From: Desulfobacca acetoxidans DSM 11109
Lineage (GTDB): Bacteria; Desulfobacterota; Desulfobaccia; Desulfobaccales; Desulfobaccaceae
Direction of reading: 5' to 3'
Length of the DNA: 64,000 nucleotides
NCBI RefSeq assembly: GCF_000195295.1
Contig: NC_015388.1
Coordinates: forward strand, 496,001 to 560,000
Part shown: piece by piece, positions 9,180 through 58,428 of the stretch
Numbering within the stretch: the stretch's first letter is position 1
Layout of the letters: each line of letters begins with the position of its first letter
Translations under genes and position numbers: made by a program
Notes under the pieces: generated by a model
Seen by the model: the letters and a program-made list of their open reading frames with translations, nothing else
What the model was told of the DNA's origin: nothing
Databases searched by the model: none

Positions 9180-9526
9180 TAGCAGATTCTCTTTACGAAA
9201 ACAGTGAGCAGTGGGCGGTGAGCAGAGAAGGCATTATTGAGAACAGTTGCCACGGGTCTGTTTTCATGCTTCGTTGTGATCAGCCGAACATGCCAATTAA
9301 TATAGCCTGTAAAAGAGGTTCGCCTAAAGCGAATACAAGATTTGCCCTTCAATAAGAACCTACGCTTGACAACAATTTGATCTTGGAACCTCCAACTCAT
9401 ATGGTCGCTTCTGACAAAGTGCGGCGAAGTCGGATAGAATGATACCATTAGTTTCATTGCAGCCTCCTTGACTTGATAAGATGATGAATATAAAATAGAA
9501 TTATCTCTGGGTTGGAATTATTCAGA
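9180..9526. repeat. Intergenic region with a mosaic repeat copy
   Basis: No gene seen. Bases 9219-9333 closely match the complement of 48662-48760, sharing landmarks GTGAGCAGA, GCATTATTG, TTGTTGTGATCA or CGTTGTGATCA, TGCCAATTA and GGTTCGCC in the same order. The TTTTCATGCTTCGTTG piece (9260-9275) recurs near 21030. Bases 9323-9350 contain a GCGAATACAAGATTTGCCC motif that belongs to the array at 27.2-27.8 kb. Confidence 0.7.
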
Positions 9527-21022: not shown

Positions 21023-21125
21023 CTGTTTTCATGCTTCGTTGTTTTCCTGAGAACATGAGGACTGTGGGCAATCGCTATAAACCGCAAACCATGAAAATCG
21101 TTTGCCGGTAGTTCAGACTTTCTTG
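21023..21125 (+). repeat. Composite intergenic repeat
   Basis: First part (TTTTCATGCTTCGTTGTTTT, then CCTGAGAACATGAG) matches the complement of 27541-27575 and the piece at 9260. Second part (CAAACCATGAAAATCGTTTG, then CCGGTAGTTCAGACTTTC) belongs to the family at 44061-44112 and 54008-54060. Two modules joined here occur apart elsewhere. Confidence 0.7.
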
Positions 21126-25347: not shown

Positions 25348-27243
25348 GTGGCTTTCCATCCCGAATCATATGATCTAATTGTCATCGGCGCCGGCCATGC
25401 CGGCTGTGAGGGTGCTTTGGCAGCAGCCCGTATGGGTCTTAAGGTCTTGATATTTAACCTTAATCTGGACACCATCGCCCATATGGCCTGCAACCCCGCT
25501 GTCGGTGGGCTTGCCAAGGGTCATCTGGTCAAAGAGATTGATGCCTTGGGGGGGGTTATCGGCTACCTGGCGGATCAGACCGGCATTCAATTCCGGCTGC
25601 TGAATACTTCAAAAGGCCCGGCAGTCCGAGGCACCCGCATTCAATGCGACAAGCAGGCTTATCGTCTGGCCATGAAGGCTCATCTTGAAAAAGAGCCGCT
25701 TGTCCATATCCGGGAAGCCATGGTGGATCGCCTTCTGACCGAAGATGGTCGCATCGTAGGCGTCCAGGAATCCTACGGTTTCTGCTACCGCGCCAGGGCC
25801 GTACTCATTACCACCGGCACCTTTTTAAACGGTCTTATCCACATCGGCCCGCATCAAACTCCGGCTGGCCGAGCCGGTGAATTTGCCTCTACTAAATTGG
25901 CCGCCAATCTCCAGGAATTGGGTTTCCGCCTGGGACGCATGAAGACCGGAACTCCACCCCGGTTGCGCGCCTCCAGTATTGATTTTTCAGGAATGGATCG
26001 CCTCGAGGGGAGCGATCGACCCTATCATTTCTCCTGGCGCAGCACCCGGGTAGACCGACCTCAAATCTCCTGTTTCGTTACTCACACCAATGGCACCACG
26101 CATCGCTGGGTCAGAGATAATATTCGGCATTCACCCCTCTACAGCGGCGTCATCAAAGGCATCAGCGCCCGTTACTGTCCTTCCCTGGAAGACAAGGTCA
26201 TGCGCTTTCCCGAGAAGACCTCCCACCAGGTTACCCTGGAACCGGAAGGCCTGGATACGGTGGAAATCTATGCCAAGGGTCTGGGCAACTGCCTGCCGGT
26301 GGAAATCCAGCTCCAACTCTTTCGCAGCGTTCCCGGCCTGGAGGCTGCCGAAGTCATGCGGCCGGCCTATGCTATTGAGTATGATTATGTCTATCCCACC
26401 CAACTCCTCCCCACCCTCGAAACCAAAGCCATCCGCGGTCTGTTTCTGGCCGGACAGATCAACGGCACCTCCGGGTATGAGGAAGCCGCCGCTCAGGGCC
26501 TCTGGGCCGGAGTCAACGCCGCCTGCCAGATTCTCGGCCGACCGCCTTTCCTGCTCGATCGTTCCCAAGCCTATATGGCCGTATTGGTGGATGATTTAGT
26601 TACCAAAGGCACCCGCGAGCCGTACCGGATGTTCACCTCTCGCGCCGAATACCGTCTCCTGCTCCGCGAGGACAACGCCGACCTGAGACTTACAGAAATC
26701 GGAGCTGCGTTAGGTCTTGTAGATAGACAGGCACTGGAGGCTTTACAGGAAAAAAAACGGCTCCTGGCCGAAGAGGAAGCCAGACTGGCTGGAAAAAGAC
26801 TTTTTCCCCTGCCCGAGGTCAATCAAGCCCTGCGTTCCCGAAGCTCCAGCGAGCTCAAAGAGCCGACGCCATTTTTAAAACTTCTGAAACGGCCCGAACT
26901 CGATCTGCCCACGCTCTACACCCTGGCTGGCGAGGTCCCCGGGGCCCCAGCGGCCATCCTGGAACAGGTGGAAATCCGACATAAGTACGAGGGCTATATT
27001 AACCGGCAACTTGAAGCGGTTAAGCAATTTGTCCACCTGGAGAAAAAACGCCTTCCTCAGGACTTCGATTACGACGCCATCCCTGGCCTCTCCAATGAAG
27101 TCAGGCAGAAACTCAAAGACATCCGGCCCCTATCCCTGGGTCAGGCCGCCCGCATCTCCGGAGTCACTCCGGCAGCCATTGCTATTCTGTTGGTCTACCT
27201 CAAACGCTGGCCCACCCTGAGGCCTACTGATTCCCTTTTTTGA
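25348..27243 (+). CDS. mnmG: tRNA uridine-5-carboxymethylaminomethyl modification enzyme
   Basis: FAD-binding subunit that works with MnmE to modify the wobble uridine of several tRNAs. 631 residues, normal length. The N-terminal FAD motif [19 protein letters not shown] is clear, as are [20 protein letters not shown], the GTFLNG segment, MKTGTPPRL and [20 protein letters not shown] start at 25348 is used because homology begins at once after it. mnmE, rsmG and parAB, frequent neighbours elsewhere, are not adjacent. Confidence 0.97.
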
Positions 27244-27800
27244 GTCCTGTTTCCCGTTTGAGGCGCATACAAGCCTCGCCCCTATCGGATGGACCTATCG
27301 GTACTACAGTGTCAAGGGCGGGAATCTCAGATCGGCGTAAGCCAAAGTGGAGCGCATCCCGCCTTCTAAAATGCCCCGACACCAATTTTCATGGTTCGCA
27401 GGTGACTTACAGCCAATGGCAATTATCGAGAAATCGAGGTCTTTAAATGTACAGTGGGCACTACCCATCATTCCTTGATCTATTCTCTCAGATAACTGAT
27501 GTAGTAACACTTCAGTTGTTTGGGACAAATACAAGTGCTCATGTTCTCAAGAACACAACGAAATATGAAAGAATAATTGGTGGCATAGGCCTCCTGGCCT
27601 GTGCATCAGCGTACCGGCTGGAAAGCCTGCACCACCGTAACACTTCAGTTGCTTGGGTCGAATACAAGATTCGCCCCTACAGATGGGTCTGTCGATGCTG
27701 TAGTGCTGTAGGGTGGGCACCGCCAACCATGTTCCTGATCTATTATCTCAGATAGCTGAAGTATTACCTGATGTATTGCGAATATTCAATATCCGGCAAA
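27244..27800. repeat. Array of mosaic intergenic repeats
   Basis: 557 bp with no gene, built almost wholly from repeat modules. Module A (TGGGCAC...TGATCTATT..CTCAGATA.CTGA.GTA) is at 27454-27508 and 27714-27766. Module B (CTTCAGTTG.TTGGG.C.AATACAAG) is at 27511-27535 and 27643-27668. Module C (TTCGCCCCTA.AG/GATGG..CT.TCG.T.CT.TAGTG) is at 27276-27312 and 27670-27710. Palindromes GCATAGGCC/GGCCTGTGC (about 27583-27606) and a CCGGCTGGAAAGCCTGC piece follow. A GCGAACCATGAAAAT module (complement) is at 27383-27402. The same A-C-B order, inverted, recurs at 52208-52340. Confidence 0.8.
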
Positions 27801-28664
27801 TTATGCTGGTGAAATCATCTTACTGCCATAATCTCTATATACCAGTACCGGACGCGTAGTCAGGCGCACCAGATTAAGGGCCTCGTCACTGATGATTTTG
27901 AGGTACTTGGGACGTTGATGGCCATAAGCGCCCAGGACCAGCAGATCATACCGCTGCACTGCAACAGCCTTTAAAATTTCGTCCACAAAGTCGCCTTTGG
28001 CCACCTTCTTGATCGGGGTGTAGCCCCACTCCCGCAGGGTGTCTTCCCCGGTAAGCACGCAGGCCTGGGCAAACTCCTCGCTCTCCCCTAGTTCGGTTTC
28101 CTGCACGTGCATGATAGTAATTTCCGGCTTCTGTTTGGCAAAGAGAGGGGCAATAAACTGCAACGCTCCCTGATCGCACTGGGAACCACGGTAAGCCACG
28201 AGGATCTTTTGAATAGGACGGAAATTTCTCAGGATCAGCACCGGTTGCAGGGCGTGGTGCAGAATCTTGCTATGGACCGTCCCCAATAGGAATCCCCGGA
28301 GCGAAGAACGTCCGTGGGCCCCCAAGACGATAAGCTCATAGCGGCCCTTTTCGGCAAAATTGAGAATTTCCTCGGTCGGGTCGCCGACGGCGATCTGAGG
28401 CGTGCAGGGAATCTTGCCACCCATGCAGATTTCGCACGACTCCAGAATCGTATCCAATACCTTTTCGGCCTCGGCCGCAACCGCTTGTTCCACATCAGCT
28501 TTAGTGGCGAACGGCGCATAGGAACTATCGGCCACCATCTCCACTACATCGGGCTGAACGTAAAGGGCGTCTACTTTAGCCTCAAAGTGTTCCAGCAGGT
28601 GGCAGGTGCAGCGCAGGGCCTCCTGCGACTCTTCGCTCTGGTCCACAGCAACGAGAATTTTCAT
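27801..28664 (-). CDS. Tandem universal stress protein (UspA-like), copy 1
   Basis: 287 residues forming two UspA-type domains in tandem. Domain 1 begins MKILVAVDQSEESQEALR and ends with the ATP-binding G-x2-G-x9-G-(S/T) pattern (LGAHGRSSLRGFLLGTVHSKIL). Domain 2 begins KILVAYRGSQCDQGALQFI and ends LGAYGHQRPKYLKIISDEAL, where the loop is less canonical. It is the last gene of the putative seven-gene operon starting with tauE. Such proteins bind ATP or AMP and act in stress survival; the specific role is unknown. Confidence 0.88.
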   Translation of the reverse strand: MKILVAVDQSEESQEALRCTCHLLEHFEAKVDALYVQPDVVEMVADSSYAPFATKADVEQAVAAEAEKVLDTILESCEICMGGKIPCTPQIAVGDPTEEILNFAEKGRYELIVLGAHGRSSLRGFLLGTVHSKILHHALQPVLILRNFRPIQKILVAYRGSQCDQGALQFIAPLFAKQKPEITIMHVQETELGESEEFAQACVLTGEDTLREWGYTPIKKVAKGDFVDEILKAVAVQRYDLLVLGAYGHQRPKYLKIISDEALNLVRLTTRPVLVYRDYGSKMISPA

Positions 28665-28716
28665 GGTATCACCTCATAACCAAAAAGAAAAACTAGCGAT
28701 AGTCAGACAGGTTCCT

Positions 28717-29580
28717 TTAGCGCATGACCAGCACTGAGGTTTGACACTTACTGACAAAACGCCCCACCCAATCCCGCGGGAAGACCCGGTCCAGCAGGGA
28801 TTTACGCCCCATCCAGAGAGCCAACAGGTCTTGCTGCAATTCATCGGAGACAAAACTTTCAAAATCCCCGATATCCGTAAGCTTAGTAGAGACCTTGATC
28901 TGGCGGTCCTCATAATAGTCGCCGATCTCAATGAGCCGCCGGTAAACATCCTTTTTCATATCACCAGATTGGCTCAGTCCGACCAACTCTACCTCCGCCT
29001 GATGAATCGTGGCTATCTGGTTGATCATCTCCAGCGATTCCTGACTGATATAACTCTGGTCGAGACAGGCCAGGATGCGATTGAGAGGCTGTTCTTCTTT
29101 TACGAGGAGCACCGAACAATCGGCATCGTTTACCACCTTTTGGGGCACTGCGGCCGCGTCCTGCCAGATACATTCCCGTCCCTTGGTGCAGCCCACAATG
29201 ATCAGGTCGGTTTCCTCATCCTTTGCTTCTGCCACGATTTCCTGAACGATATTCCCGACCCGGAAACAGACCCGGACGTCCCTTTTGTCACCCCGGCAGA
29301 CCAGGAGCTCCTCCCAAACCCCGTTTTTTAAGGGAAGCCACTCATAACGCCACTCTTTCCGGGCATAAGGTGAGCCTTCAGCCTCCGAACTTTTTAAAAA
29401 ATGCTCCCGATACCCCTGCAGGGCCTGGATAAGAAGATGATCAGACTTAGGAACCCCTTTATCTCCCGGCGCCACGGCCAACATCGTGACGTCTGCCCAA
29501 GTGTTCCGGGCCAGCCGGATTACCTCTTTAAGGGCATAAGCGCTGTATGGGTGTTCATCACCGGCAAACAGGATTTTCAT
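28717..29580 (-). CDS. Tandem universal stress protein, copy 2
   Basis: 287 residues, again two Usp-like halves: MKILFAGDEHPYSAYALKEV at the start and LNRILACLDQSYISQESLEM in the middle. The first half keeps a partial nucleotide loop (IIVGCTKGREC ... VPQKVV); the second lacks a clean G-x2-G motif. GGGAG precedes its ATG. Same length as the next gene but strongly diverged from it, so any duplication is old. Confidence 0.82.
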   Translation of the reverse strand: MKILFAGDEHPYSAYALKEVIRLARNTWADVTMLAVAPGDKGVPKSDHLLIQALQGYREHFLKSSEAEGSPYARKEWRYEWLPLKNGVWEELLVCRGDKRDVRVCFRVGNIVQEIVAEAKDEETDLIIVGCTKGRECIWQDAAAVPQKVVNDADCSVLLVKEEQPLNRILACLDQSYISQESLEMINQIATIHQAEVELVGLSQSGDMKKDVYRRLIEIGDYYEDRQIKVSTKLTDIGDFESFVSDELQQDLLALWMGRKSLLDRVFPRDWVGRFVSKCQTSVLVMR

Positions 29581-29636
29581 ACCGCTCCCATCCTTTCTAA
29601 AGCCTTATTGTGACGGCCCGGTTAGTTGTTTCATCG

Positions 29637-30428
29637 TTAAAGCTGAACCAGTAACAGCGGGTTGCTTATCTGCGGCAGCCAGGAAAGTGGGGGAGAGTCT
29701 TTTCTAGTCCCTCTGCCTAGAGCTACGGCCACTAACCCGGAGGTTTTGGAAAGTTCCGGAGGAGGTCCGCCCTCCCCCGGAGTAAAGGCGATTCCCACTG
29801 CCGCCTGGCAGCCTTGGGCCTTCAGATCTGCTACAGCTTTCTGGACCATAGGCAACATATCGTCTCCTCCCCCACCGCTTTTGGCATAGGCCAGATTCAG
29901 GGGGAGAGGGCTTCCGACAAAAAGTCTTTTCAGAGCCTCGACCAGGACCTTGAGGCCCTCGGGATGTAAGCACACTGCCACCACCTGATCAATTTTTCGA
30001 ACGCTCCGAAGCCAGATCAAGGGGCAGATCAAACGCTGGTAAAATTTAGTATGCCAACGCTTATAAATTGTGGCCGGGGTAAAAGGATAAGGCGCTCCCT
30101 CAATGTATAGATCAAAGGGTTCCTGCTCAATGACGTGGAGAAGTTCGATTTCCCGGTCGCCATAGATTACCCGGGGTTCCTGCATGAGCGGGCAGGAGTC
30201 AGTCTCTGCAGAGAGCATCTCCTGAATTTCAATCCGGCCTTTTTCCACGACCTCCCTTTCCCAGCTATAGCGCACCCAACCGACACCGGTTATGGGAAAT
30301 TCGGCAGAGGGAAATTTCACGTAGATCGGGTGGATCTCCATCCGAATCAGGTTGCCCAACTGGCAGGCAAATCGGATGGCAAAGCTGGAGGCTAGGTCCA
30401 CTTCAATGGCTACAAGTGTCTTAACCAT
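29637..30428 (-). CDS. Universal-stress-like protein, degenerate copy 3
   Basis: 263 residues. The N-terminus (VKTLVAIEVDLASSFAIRFA) and the hydrophobic strands FDLYIEG and SGLVAVALG suggest two UspA-like folds, but the ATP-binding G-x2-G-x9-G motif is missing in both. The ATG at 30428 follows AGGAG by 9 nt; a TTG at 30437 would overlap the spacer. It lies between the response regulator and two better-preserved Usp genes. A non-nucleotide-binding partner role is possible; the family call is moderate. Confidence 0.6.
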   Translation of the reverse strand: MVKTLVAIEVDLASSFAIRFACQLGNLIRMEIHPIYVKFPSAEFPITGVGWVRYSWEREVVEKGRIEIQEMLSAETDSCPLMQEPRVIYGDREIELLHVIEQEPFDLYIEGAPYPFTPATIYKRWHTKFYQRLICPLIWLRSVRKIDQVVAVCLHPEGLKVLVEALKRLFVGSPLPLNLAYAKSGGGGDDMLPMVQKAVADLKAQGCQAAVGIAFTPGEGGPPPELSKTSGLVAVALGRGTRKDSPPLSWLPQISNPLLLVQL

Positions 30429-30468
30429 AAATAACAACTCCTTGATGCTTCAAACCGAGGATTAACGT

Positions 30469-45571: not shown

Positions 45572-46095
45572 GTATATCTCCTGCGGGATTTTTCCCGAGT
45601 ATCAAAAGAGTGGAGGGATCATTGTATTCTTTTTGGAAATCGGACGTCAGAGACAATTTTTCTGTCAAACTCCTCTTCCTTTGCCGTATACTTCTACGAA
45701 AGGCAGTTCGATCGCTGCCATCCAACAATCTATCGTTGTCTGGTAGGCTGAGCCGGCGCAAAGGAGAAGCTTTACTGCAGCAATCTAAAATTGCACCCCT
45801 TGCCAGCAGCACCGTTGACTTTTGATAGACTAGTGTTAATCGGTGGATTACAATACGGCAGGAAAGATTAAAGATAGTAACTGGGCAACAGTTCAGTCTT
45901 CTGAGGGTTTAGGTATGCTACTATGTTTACCCCCCCTTATCCCCCCGTAAACCGGGGGAAAGTTCCCTCCCCGCTTACGGGGAGGGTTAGGGTGGGGCTG
46001 TTTTTCATCTTTTCCTCAACACGCTGAACTGTTACGTAACTGGCAAAATCTTTAGCCGATTGATCTAGCAGCTTCAAAACCAATCACAGGCAATT
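45572..46095. repeat. Intergenic region with nested G+C-rich hairpins
   Basis: 524 bp, no gene. Two adjacent hairpins occur: CCCCCGTAAACCGGGGG (about 45942-45958) and CCCTCCCCG CTTA CGGGGAGGG (45965-45986), followed by TTAGGGTGGGG. Such units resemble REP-type intergenic repeats common in proteobacteria. The A+T-rich part before 45930 shows nothing definite. Confidence 0.55.
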
Positions 46096-48661: not shown

Positions 48662-48760
48662 GGCGAACCTGCCATACTAATTGGCAATCCCTGGTGATCA
48701 CAACAAAATATGAGAACAGAACCGTGGATACTGCTCACAATAATGCTTTTTCTGCTCACT
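48662..48760 (-). repeat. Inverted copy of the 9219-9333 repeat
   Basis: The complement carries the same ordered landmarks as 9219-9333: GTGAGCAGA, AGCATTATTG, CCACGG, TTCTGTT.TCAT, TTGTTGTGATCA, TGCCAATTAGTAT and GGTTCGCC. The whole match spans about 100 bp at moderate identity. Confidence 0.75.
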
Positions 48761-52003: not shown

Positions 52004-52478
52004 AGTTTCTTCTCCTGGCTTCCCGACCCAGAAACTTTGGGTTTTTCCTTCCCTGACCTCTTTAGCATGAGCAGACCTTCAAACTCACTGCAATACCAGA
52101 CAGGCAATCTGGGCGCAAGCCCGAAGGTCTGGATATCTTTCGTACTCTCGATTTACTTTTAATTACTTTTCTCTATTTGTCAAGCCAATGTTACTGCCGT
52201 GAAATTGGATGTAGCACTTCAGATATCTGAGAGAATAGACCAAGGAGTGGTGAGCGGTGCGCACCCTGCAGCACTATAGCACCGGCAGGCTCATCCATAG
52301 GGACGAATCTTGTATTGGCCGCAAACAACTAAAGAGTTAAGCTTTCAGAATACGGTCATTTTGAGCGTAGCGAAGCAACTAATGTATTTATAGGCTTAAG
52401 ATCTTTTGCGTCGTTCAGGACGACAAAAAAGGCTATTCGGCAAAAGGCTGGCCTTTTCAAGCGATAGGAGATTTACCC
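52004..52478. repeat. Intergenic region with a long mosaic repeat
   Basis: 475 bp, no gene. Bases 52208-52340 match, in inverted orientation, the modules at 27643-27766: GTAGCACTTCAG, ATCTGAGAGAATAGACCAAGG, GGTGCGCACCCTGCAGCACTA (each split here at mismatches), GGACGAATCTTGTATTGG and CAAACAACTAAAG. A TCATTTTGAGCGTAGCGAAG piece follows at 52370-52390. Confidence 0.75.
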
Positions 52479-57964: not shown

Positions 57965-58428
57965 GGTAGGTCTCCTTTCAATAATCAACATTGATGGCAA
58001 TTGTCATTACCACAAACCCTGAGGTCGAAGCCACCGATTGCTGATTTCCATTTTTTAAAGGTTCCACCTGTTTCCTCTAATACCATTAATACTTATTTGC
58101 CGTCAAACGCATATTCTACTTGTAAGGGCGAATCTTGCGTTCCCCCTCATTTGCCCACAAACATATTTTCTTTTCGTCGGGGCGAATCTTGTATTCGCCC
58201 TCGGCTGCTTCCTAACAGGCCAGCGAAACGCCGTTACGGGTCATTTCGAGGCCTTTGGTCCACCGCCATCTTATTATAAACTTCAATTCAACAATGGCAA
58301 AAGAATAATTATAATTTAGATATATTTTTGGGTACAAGGAAGCGGCGGCAGGGGAGCGGGGGAATCGATTCCATAGCGCATATCTACGATTTCATAGATA
58401 AATTCCCGGCAGGCAAGCTTGGGCGCGG
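57965..58428. repeat. Intergenic region with two GGGCGAATCTTG repeats
   Basis: 464 bp, no gene. TAAGGGCGAATCTTGCGTTC (from 58128) and CGGGGCGAATCTTGTATTCG (from 58178) are copies of module C seen near 27.7 and 52.3 kb. A further long stretch is A+T-rich and unremarkable. The selenium operon ends at its right side. Confidence 0.6.

Follow-up and report, generated by a model that had tools for sequence, protein, structure and literature searches.

The window, a stretch of 64,000 nucleotides, comprised bases 496001-560000 of one single contig of Desulfobacca acetoxidans DSM 11109. Coordinates up to 64,000 refer to the window and larger ones to the host genome. The repeat array spanned 557 bp (27244-27800) and filled the entire gap between the stop codon of mnmG (27243) and that of a convergent universal stress protein (Usp) gene (Table 1). 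Three consecutive Usp-like genes occupied 27801-30437. The trio was kept at one locus of a relative (L094), which held a single close Usp homologue (66%) with two Usp neighbours; neither an mnmG match nor an empty site was found there. Comparison of the window with itself gave direct repeats within the array (27448-27506 with 27707-27766; 27504-27535 with 27637-27668, 91%) and inverted matches to a block at 52.2 kb (27638-27762 with 52339-52216, 80% over 125 bp, E 4e-26; 27256-27311 with 52326-52272). Both kinds of match were far above chance level. This confirmed the mosaic array and the inverted copy described in a sequence-only reading of the window: the gap is made of dispersed repeats, and the block at 52.2 kb is a complete, inverted copy of core module B. 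That reading had named absence of the modules elsewhere in the genome as the observation that would count against it. The modules occurred genome-wide, with at least 62 matches to a 361-bp array query when 40 of 242 candidates were scored, and with the terminal repeat at 132 places.

Table 1. Features of the intergenic array, its neighbouring genes and the inverted copy (window coordinates).
Feature	Position	Strand	Basis or remark
mnmG	25348-27243		upstream of array; MnmG/GidA domains
Older long element (B-long), left part	27242-27503	+	nhmmer pieces 27256-27326 and 27448-27505; order: left end (decayed) at the stop codon of mnmG, REP1 (decayed), third palindrome, spacer, REP2, right end as far as the insertion
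Long-form palindrome GGGCGGGA...GGAGCGCATCCCGCC, a REP family	27316-27363	+	sequence
Target duplication CTGATGTA, left copy	27496-27503	+	8/8 match
Composite miniature transposon, 264 bp	27504-27767	+	in right end of older element
Outer left terminal repeat GTAACACTTCAGTTGTTTGGG	27504-27524	+	exact pattern match
E-type insert, 133 bp	27536-27668	+	after ATACAAG (27529-27535); itself ends in ATACAAG
GTGG-footed palindrome pair, E cargo type c1	27579-27636	+	sequence; opposite orientation
Core module B, 131 bp, both terminal repeats	27637-27767	+	copies aligned with flanks
Left end of core module B, GTAACACTTCAGTTGYTTGGG			copies aligned with flanks
REP1 palindrome GTAGGGGCGAAT-CTTGT-ATTCGACCC (minus-strand reading)	27655-27680	-	GTAG-footed
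REP2 palindrome GTAGGGTGGGCACCGCCAACC	27708-27728	+	sequence; GTAG-footed
Right terminal repeat GTAATACTTCAGCTATCTGAG	27747-27767	-	exact pattern match
Target duplication CTGATGTA, right copy	27768-27775	+	8/8 match
Final right-end bases TTGC of older element, severed by insertion	27776-27779	+	empty-site alignment
Usp gene	27801-28664	-	convergent with mnmG
Core module B, full, inverted	52211-52340	-	flanks agree 3/8

Core module B is a miniature inverted-repeat transposon. Its ends are inverted repeats of about 21 bp (GTAAYACTTCAG...) and its target duplications measure 8 bp. The element is short and non-coding, with sizes of 131 and 264 bp. The terminal repeat pattern, counted for both ends with up to three mismatches, occurred at the 132 places against none for the reversed-pattern control. 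Ends lying 70-320 bp apart were paired within 373 kb of host DNA taken around matches, a non-random sample for both pair and array counts. Identical 8-bp flanks were present in 14 of 43 end pairs and 7/8 flanks in another five, the 43 including alternative pairings at a single locus, such as 523637-523767 inside the composite. Two of the 14 (1166850 and 1176836) share flanks and represent one duplicated locus, and another, at window positions 45885-46035, is a member of a second family. Flanks crossed between loci agreed at 8/8 positions in 0.11% of 1794 pairings. Many end pairs had poor flanks, as expected for old copies; the inverted module at 52.2 kb was among them, and its 3/8 agreement marks it as an old copy. 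The sole sizeable open reading frame of the array (27447-27755, 102 aa) had no Pfam match, and a coding role was rejected. By a rough test of 22 of 30 copies, one element lay inside an open reading frame of at least 100 aa. Twenty host stretches, mainly at unpaired ends, were likewise searched for repeat pieces.

Both the terminal repeats and the target duplications suggest that an IS66-type transposase mobilises the unit as a whole. Published IS66 elements start with GTAA (PMC12888890), as do the ends of core module B, and 8-bp repeats are tabulated for two IS66 elements of Paracoccus (PMC3281130). A profile search found no IS66 transposase (Pfam PF03050) in the host genome. Among 29 genomes of the class, one of them the host, four had the end pattern with one mismatch allowed, and all four were of one family. 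In the related genome G028, an IS66 transposase (Pfam DDE_Tnp_IS66, in two overlapping frames) ended inside the terminal repeat GTAACACTTCAGTTAACTGAG; one of its transposase fragments scored below the NCBIfam IS66 cut-off (154 vs 180 bits). Other ends in this genome (L077 and L087) were similar to the right end of core module B. The sole element there with both ends visible (L105/L108) had diverged ends and no matching 8-bp flanks. In a second related genome, G024, an IS66 fragment lay about 130 bp from the same type of end. Judged from these sequences, the shell bounded by the GTAAYACTTCAG... ends would be recognised and moved in trans by an IS66-family transposase, which was probably since lost from the host genome, or may be too diverged for detection. 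The shell might instead belong to another DDE transposon family with 8-bp duplications, since the host has no detectable IS66 gene and such duplications are not unique to IS66, being made also by ISPve1 of the IS21 family (PMC3281130). This is unlikely, as G028 and G024 have such ends at IS66 genes and the ends share their GTAA start with the published IS66 ends. At a further G028 locus (L083, contig C34), a reverse transcriptase gene lay a few hundred bp inward of an IS66-type end and may belong to a group II intron carried by the element.

The array contains two such miniature transposons, one inside the other. The older one, B-long, carries an extra palindrome and spacer in its middle compared to the 131-bp form. 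The same layout was found at 751250 (243 bp between ends), 988842 (285 bp) and 1064620. The window copy corresponds to the approximately 243-bp form and comprises about 27242-27503 plus 27776-27779, with its exact left edge inferred by length. Removal in silico of the composite and one CTGATGTA restored the older element; across the junction, one other long copy agreed with it at 61/75 positions and another at 64/75. The composite jumped into the right end of this older B-long copy. A second copy of the composite at 2939542-2939805 was 260/264 identical and had its own duplication, AAAAATTT, in unrelated flanks; a third, at 2942785-2943038, lacked one end and was identical at 249/254 positions. 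The occurrence of the same composite elsewhere with its own target duplication indicates that it moved as a unit. Simple tandem duplication was ruled out by the 8-bp target duplication of the composite. The proposal of the sequence-only reading, a non-coding system built by mobility or recombination beyond simple duplication, was thereby supported by nested insertion, target duplication and the presence of the composite elsewhere. A mosaic arising mainly by homologous recombination and replication slippage among dispersed repeats, with no transposition at this site, would account for the short words ATACAAG and GTAGGG common to module joints and for tandem partial copies elsewhere (2531926-2532104), but it is very improbable given composites bounded by 8-bp duplications both here and, in unrelated flanks, at the second site. 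Recombination may still account for the joint within the composite and for the internal deletion; the 131-bp form looks like a long form that has lost the stretch between GTAGGG words.

The composite contains an E-type insert, which opens with E-family head sequence, holds the E core at 27540-27574 and has a copy of the element's left end as its final 32 bp. Deletion of the 133 bp in silico gave a plain 131-bp element, 126/131 identical to 289623-289753. The E core was present at 148 places in the host genome (control, 0) and in none of 18 genomes of relatives. Further single-unit cores were located in the window at 9258-9292, 21023-21057 and 48685-48715. In the sampled host DNA, 129 E cores formed 77 arrays, of which 46, 15, 12, 3 and 1 had one, two, three, four and five units, respectively. 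The units were arranged head to tail with core spacings mostly of 107, 114-116 or 121 bp, and these seven-bp steps tracked the number of CACGGCT-like heptamers. The cargo between cores consisted of a few recurring types. The arrays started after and finished in ATAYAAR, with left and right flanks otherwise unalike (59 of 77 arrays read). At 3205490-3205760, a two-unit array was found within a B-type copy, exactly at ATACAAG, as predicted by insertion at the motif. The single-strand fold of one E unit was not outstanding (z -1.32). Three long copies (166420-166556, 293100-293237 and 1064620-1064912) had two ATACAAG words, or a one-base variant, 15 bp apart, possibly a trace of E insertion or loss.

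A tentative explanation is that E units are self-targeting, gene-less cassettes that insert at ATAYAAR, end in ATAYAAR and build arrays with exchangeable cargo such as REP pairs and heptamer runs. Each insertion would make the next landing site, which would produce the head-to-tail arrays. Non-autonomous elements of the IS200/IS605 type resemble E in insertion at a fixed motif and in the absence of duplication of other flanking bases. E would then be a concrete case of a repeat seemingly making its own landing site, its units could be transported within an IS66-type miniature transposon as in the window, and its arrays could be mistaken for CRISPRs, with which they share regularly spaced repeats. 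In contrast to CRISPRs, the E 'spacers' were few recurring cargo types, and the arrays were scattered over the genome and mostly single units. Unique spacers between repeats were absent, the same few cargo types recurring between cores. The host genome has Cas1 genes; one cas1 gene ended about 430 bp before the E array at 1488432, and E arrays were otherwise scattered. One survey records four 55-bp repeats, the longest of that survey, as a CRISPR of D. acetoxidans (PMC5011713). E arrays would fit this entry, and arrays such as the one at 1260421-1260913, which has five units and direct repeats longer than 55 bp, may be the listed CRISPR of the species. The E arrays offer one way in which repeat arrays of the host genome could be read as something other than CRISPRs.

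The interior of the shell carries repeats of the REP class, a class already known (PMC2817692, PMC3733652). REP1 and REP2 face opposite ways in core module B. REP1 had 117 forward and 116 reverse matches genome-wide (control, 0); as a near-palindrome, it was counted on both strands. With at most one mismatch, 31 of 46 listed REP1 places were more than 150 bp from any of 113 listed terminal-repeat positions, and at least three of the 31 lay in decayed element pieces (1075881, 1446899 and 2689654). Short solitary matches to REP1 were found at many places in the relative G015 and also in G020. A further REP1 palindrome in the window, at 58176-58201, had no listed terminal repeat nearby. In relatives, the palindrome families adjoined genes for REP-associated tyrosine transposases (RAYT), called with the NCBIfam model. 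At L218, REP2-type copies stood 28 and 1 bp away from such a gene. The long-form family was 6 and 26 bp from such a gene at L225 and 13 bp at L228, and it flanked RAYT genes in G015. The GTGG-type family was 40 and 4 bp away at L217 and 4 and 22 bp away at L214, where one more copy overlapped the reading frame; it adjoined RAYT genes in G015 and G020. For REP1 the link was weaker, with a single case: at L200, two copies stood on the same flank of a short gene that scored below the curated cut-off. At 20 of 30 Y1-transposase loci of relatives, all four palindromes were absent.

Three Y1 genes were found in the host, all of the RAYT type. They were not flanked by the window palindromes; other palindromes or none were seen there. 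The suggestion of a genome-encoded REP-associated transposase was therefore borne out in part: the interior palindromes are REPs of families that flank RAYT genes in relatives and the host has genes of this type, but the window palindromes do not flank these three. Upstream of one of the host genes (L032, 2760536-2763856) lay its own palindromes in tandem (CATAGGGCGGCC...), which bear no relation to the window repeats. That the array is an ordinary BIME of RAYT-amplified palindromes with incidental GTAAYACTTCAG ends would agree with the opposite orientation of GTAG- and GTGG-footed palindromes within a module and with the RAYT genes of relatives and host, but it is highly unlikely, as the unit with 8-bp duplications is bounded by inverted ends and not by palindromes, REP1 also occurs away from such ends, the host RAYT genes have other palindromes, and no copies with the whole interior and without ends were seen in the sampled host DNA.

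With terminal repeats, target duplications, nesting and a composite at three places in the host, and with such ends at IS66 genes and REP families beside RAYT genes in relatives, the array is very likely a nest of non-autonomous miniature transposons in which an IS66-type shell carries REP passengers. An old B-long element would have landed at the end of mnmG. An E-type unit would have entered a 131-bp copy at the ATACAAG of that copy and so formed the composite, which later jumped into the right end of B-long, duplicating 8 bp. The REP palindromes, of the kind spread by RAYTs, would ride as passengers in the shell.

The array forms a mosaic mobile system and illustrates known classes of mobile DNA clearly and in rather elaborate form. 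The IS66 family and its miniature derivatives share GTAA ends, inverted repeats of about 20 bp or longer and 8-bp duplications (PMC12888890, PMC3281130). They differ in that the window element has no gene and no parent found in the genome, and contains REP palindromes instead of IS66 remnants. The REPs and BIMEs of RAYTs have GTAG- or GTGG-footed palindromes, opposite orientation and high copy number in common with the array; among the REP families that PMC2817692 gives are palindromes of the GTAGGGTGGGC type in Haemophilus. In the window, by contrast, an IS66-type shell carries the palindromes as passengers and generates 8-bp duplications when it moves. The BrickBuilt MITE of Porphyromonas gingivalis is likewise a miniature transposon, always intergenic, with an interior of repetitive DNA of another kind (PMC4596501). 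Whereas BrickBuilt holds one 23-nt minisatellite (PMC4596501), the window element shows several REP families, nesting and composites. A literature search on Desulfobacca repeats, IS66 miniature elements and MITEs with REPs or BIMEs, covering few subscription papers, gave no description of the element among the papers listed, and a review of prokaryotic MITEs makes no mention of IS66 (PMC10969869). Packaging of REPs of another transposase class by an IS66-type shell, in composites that then travel as units, offers an origin for bacterial 'mosaic' intergenic repeats.

At this site, the array is viewed as mobile DNA that is tolerated between two convergent genes. A role as RNA or terminator was rejected: no Rfam match was found in 27100-27950, the array had no terminator-like site, and single-strand folding of the 131-bp element was not outstanding (z -1.56). 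One promoter-like site was detected, with 1.0 expected. The second miniature transposon family in the window had a length of 151 bp and the ends GCAACAGTTCAG and GTAACAGTTCAG, with GTAACTGG on both sides (8/8); similar ends were also present at 3272355-3272506 in the host genome.
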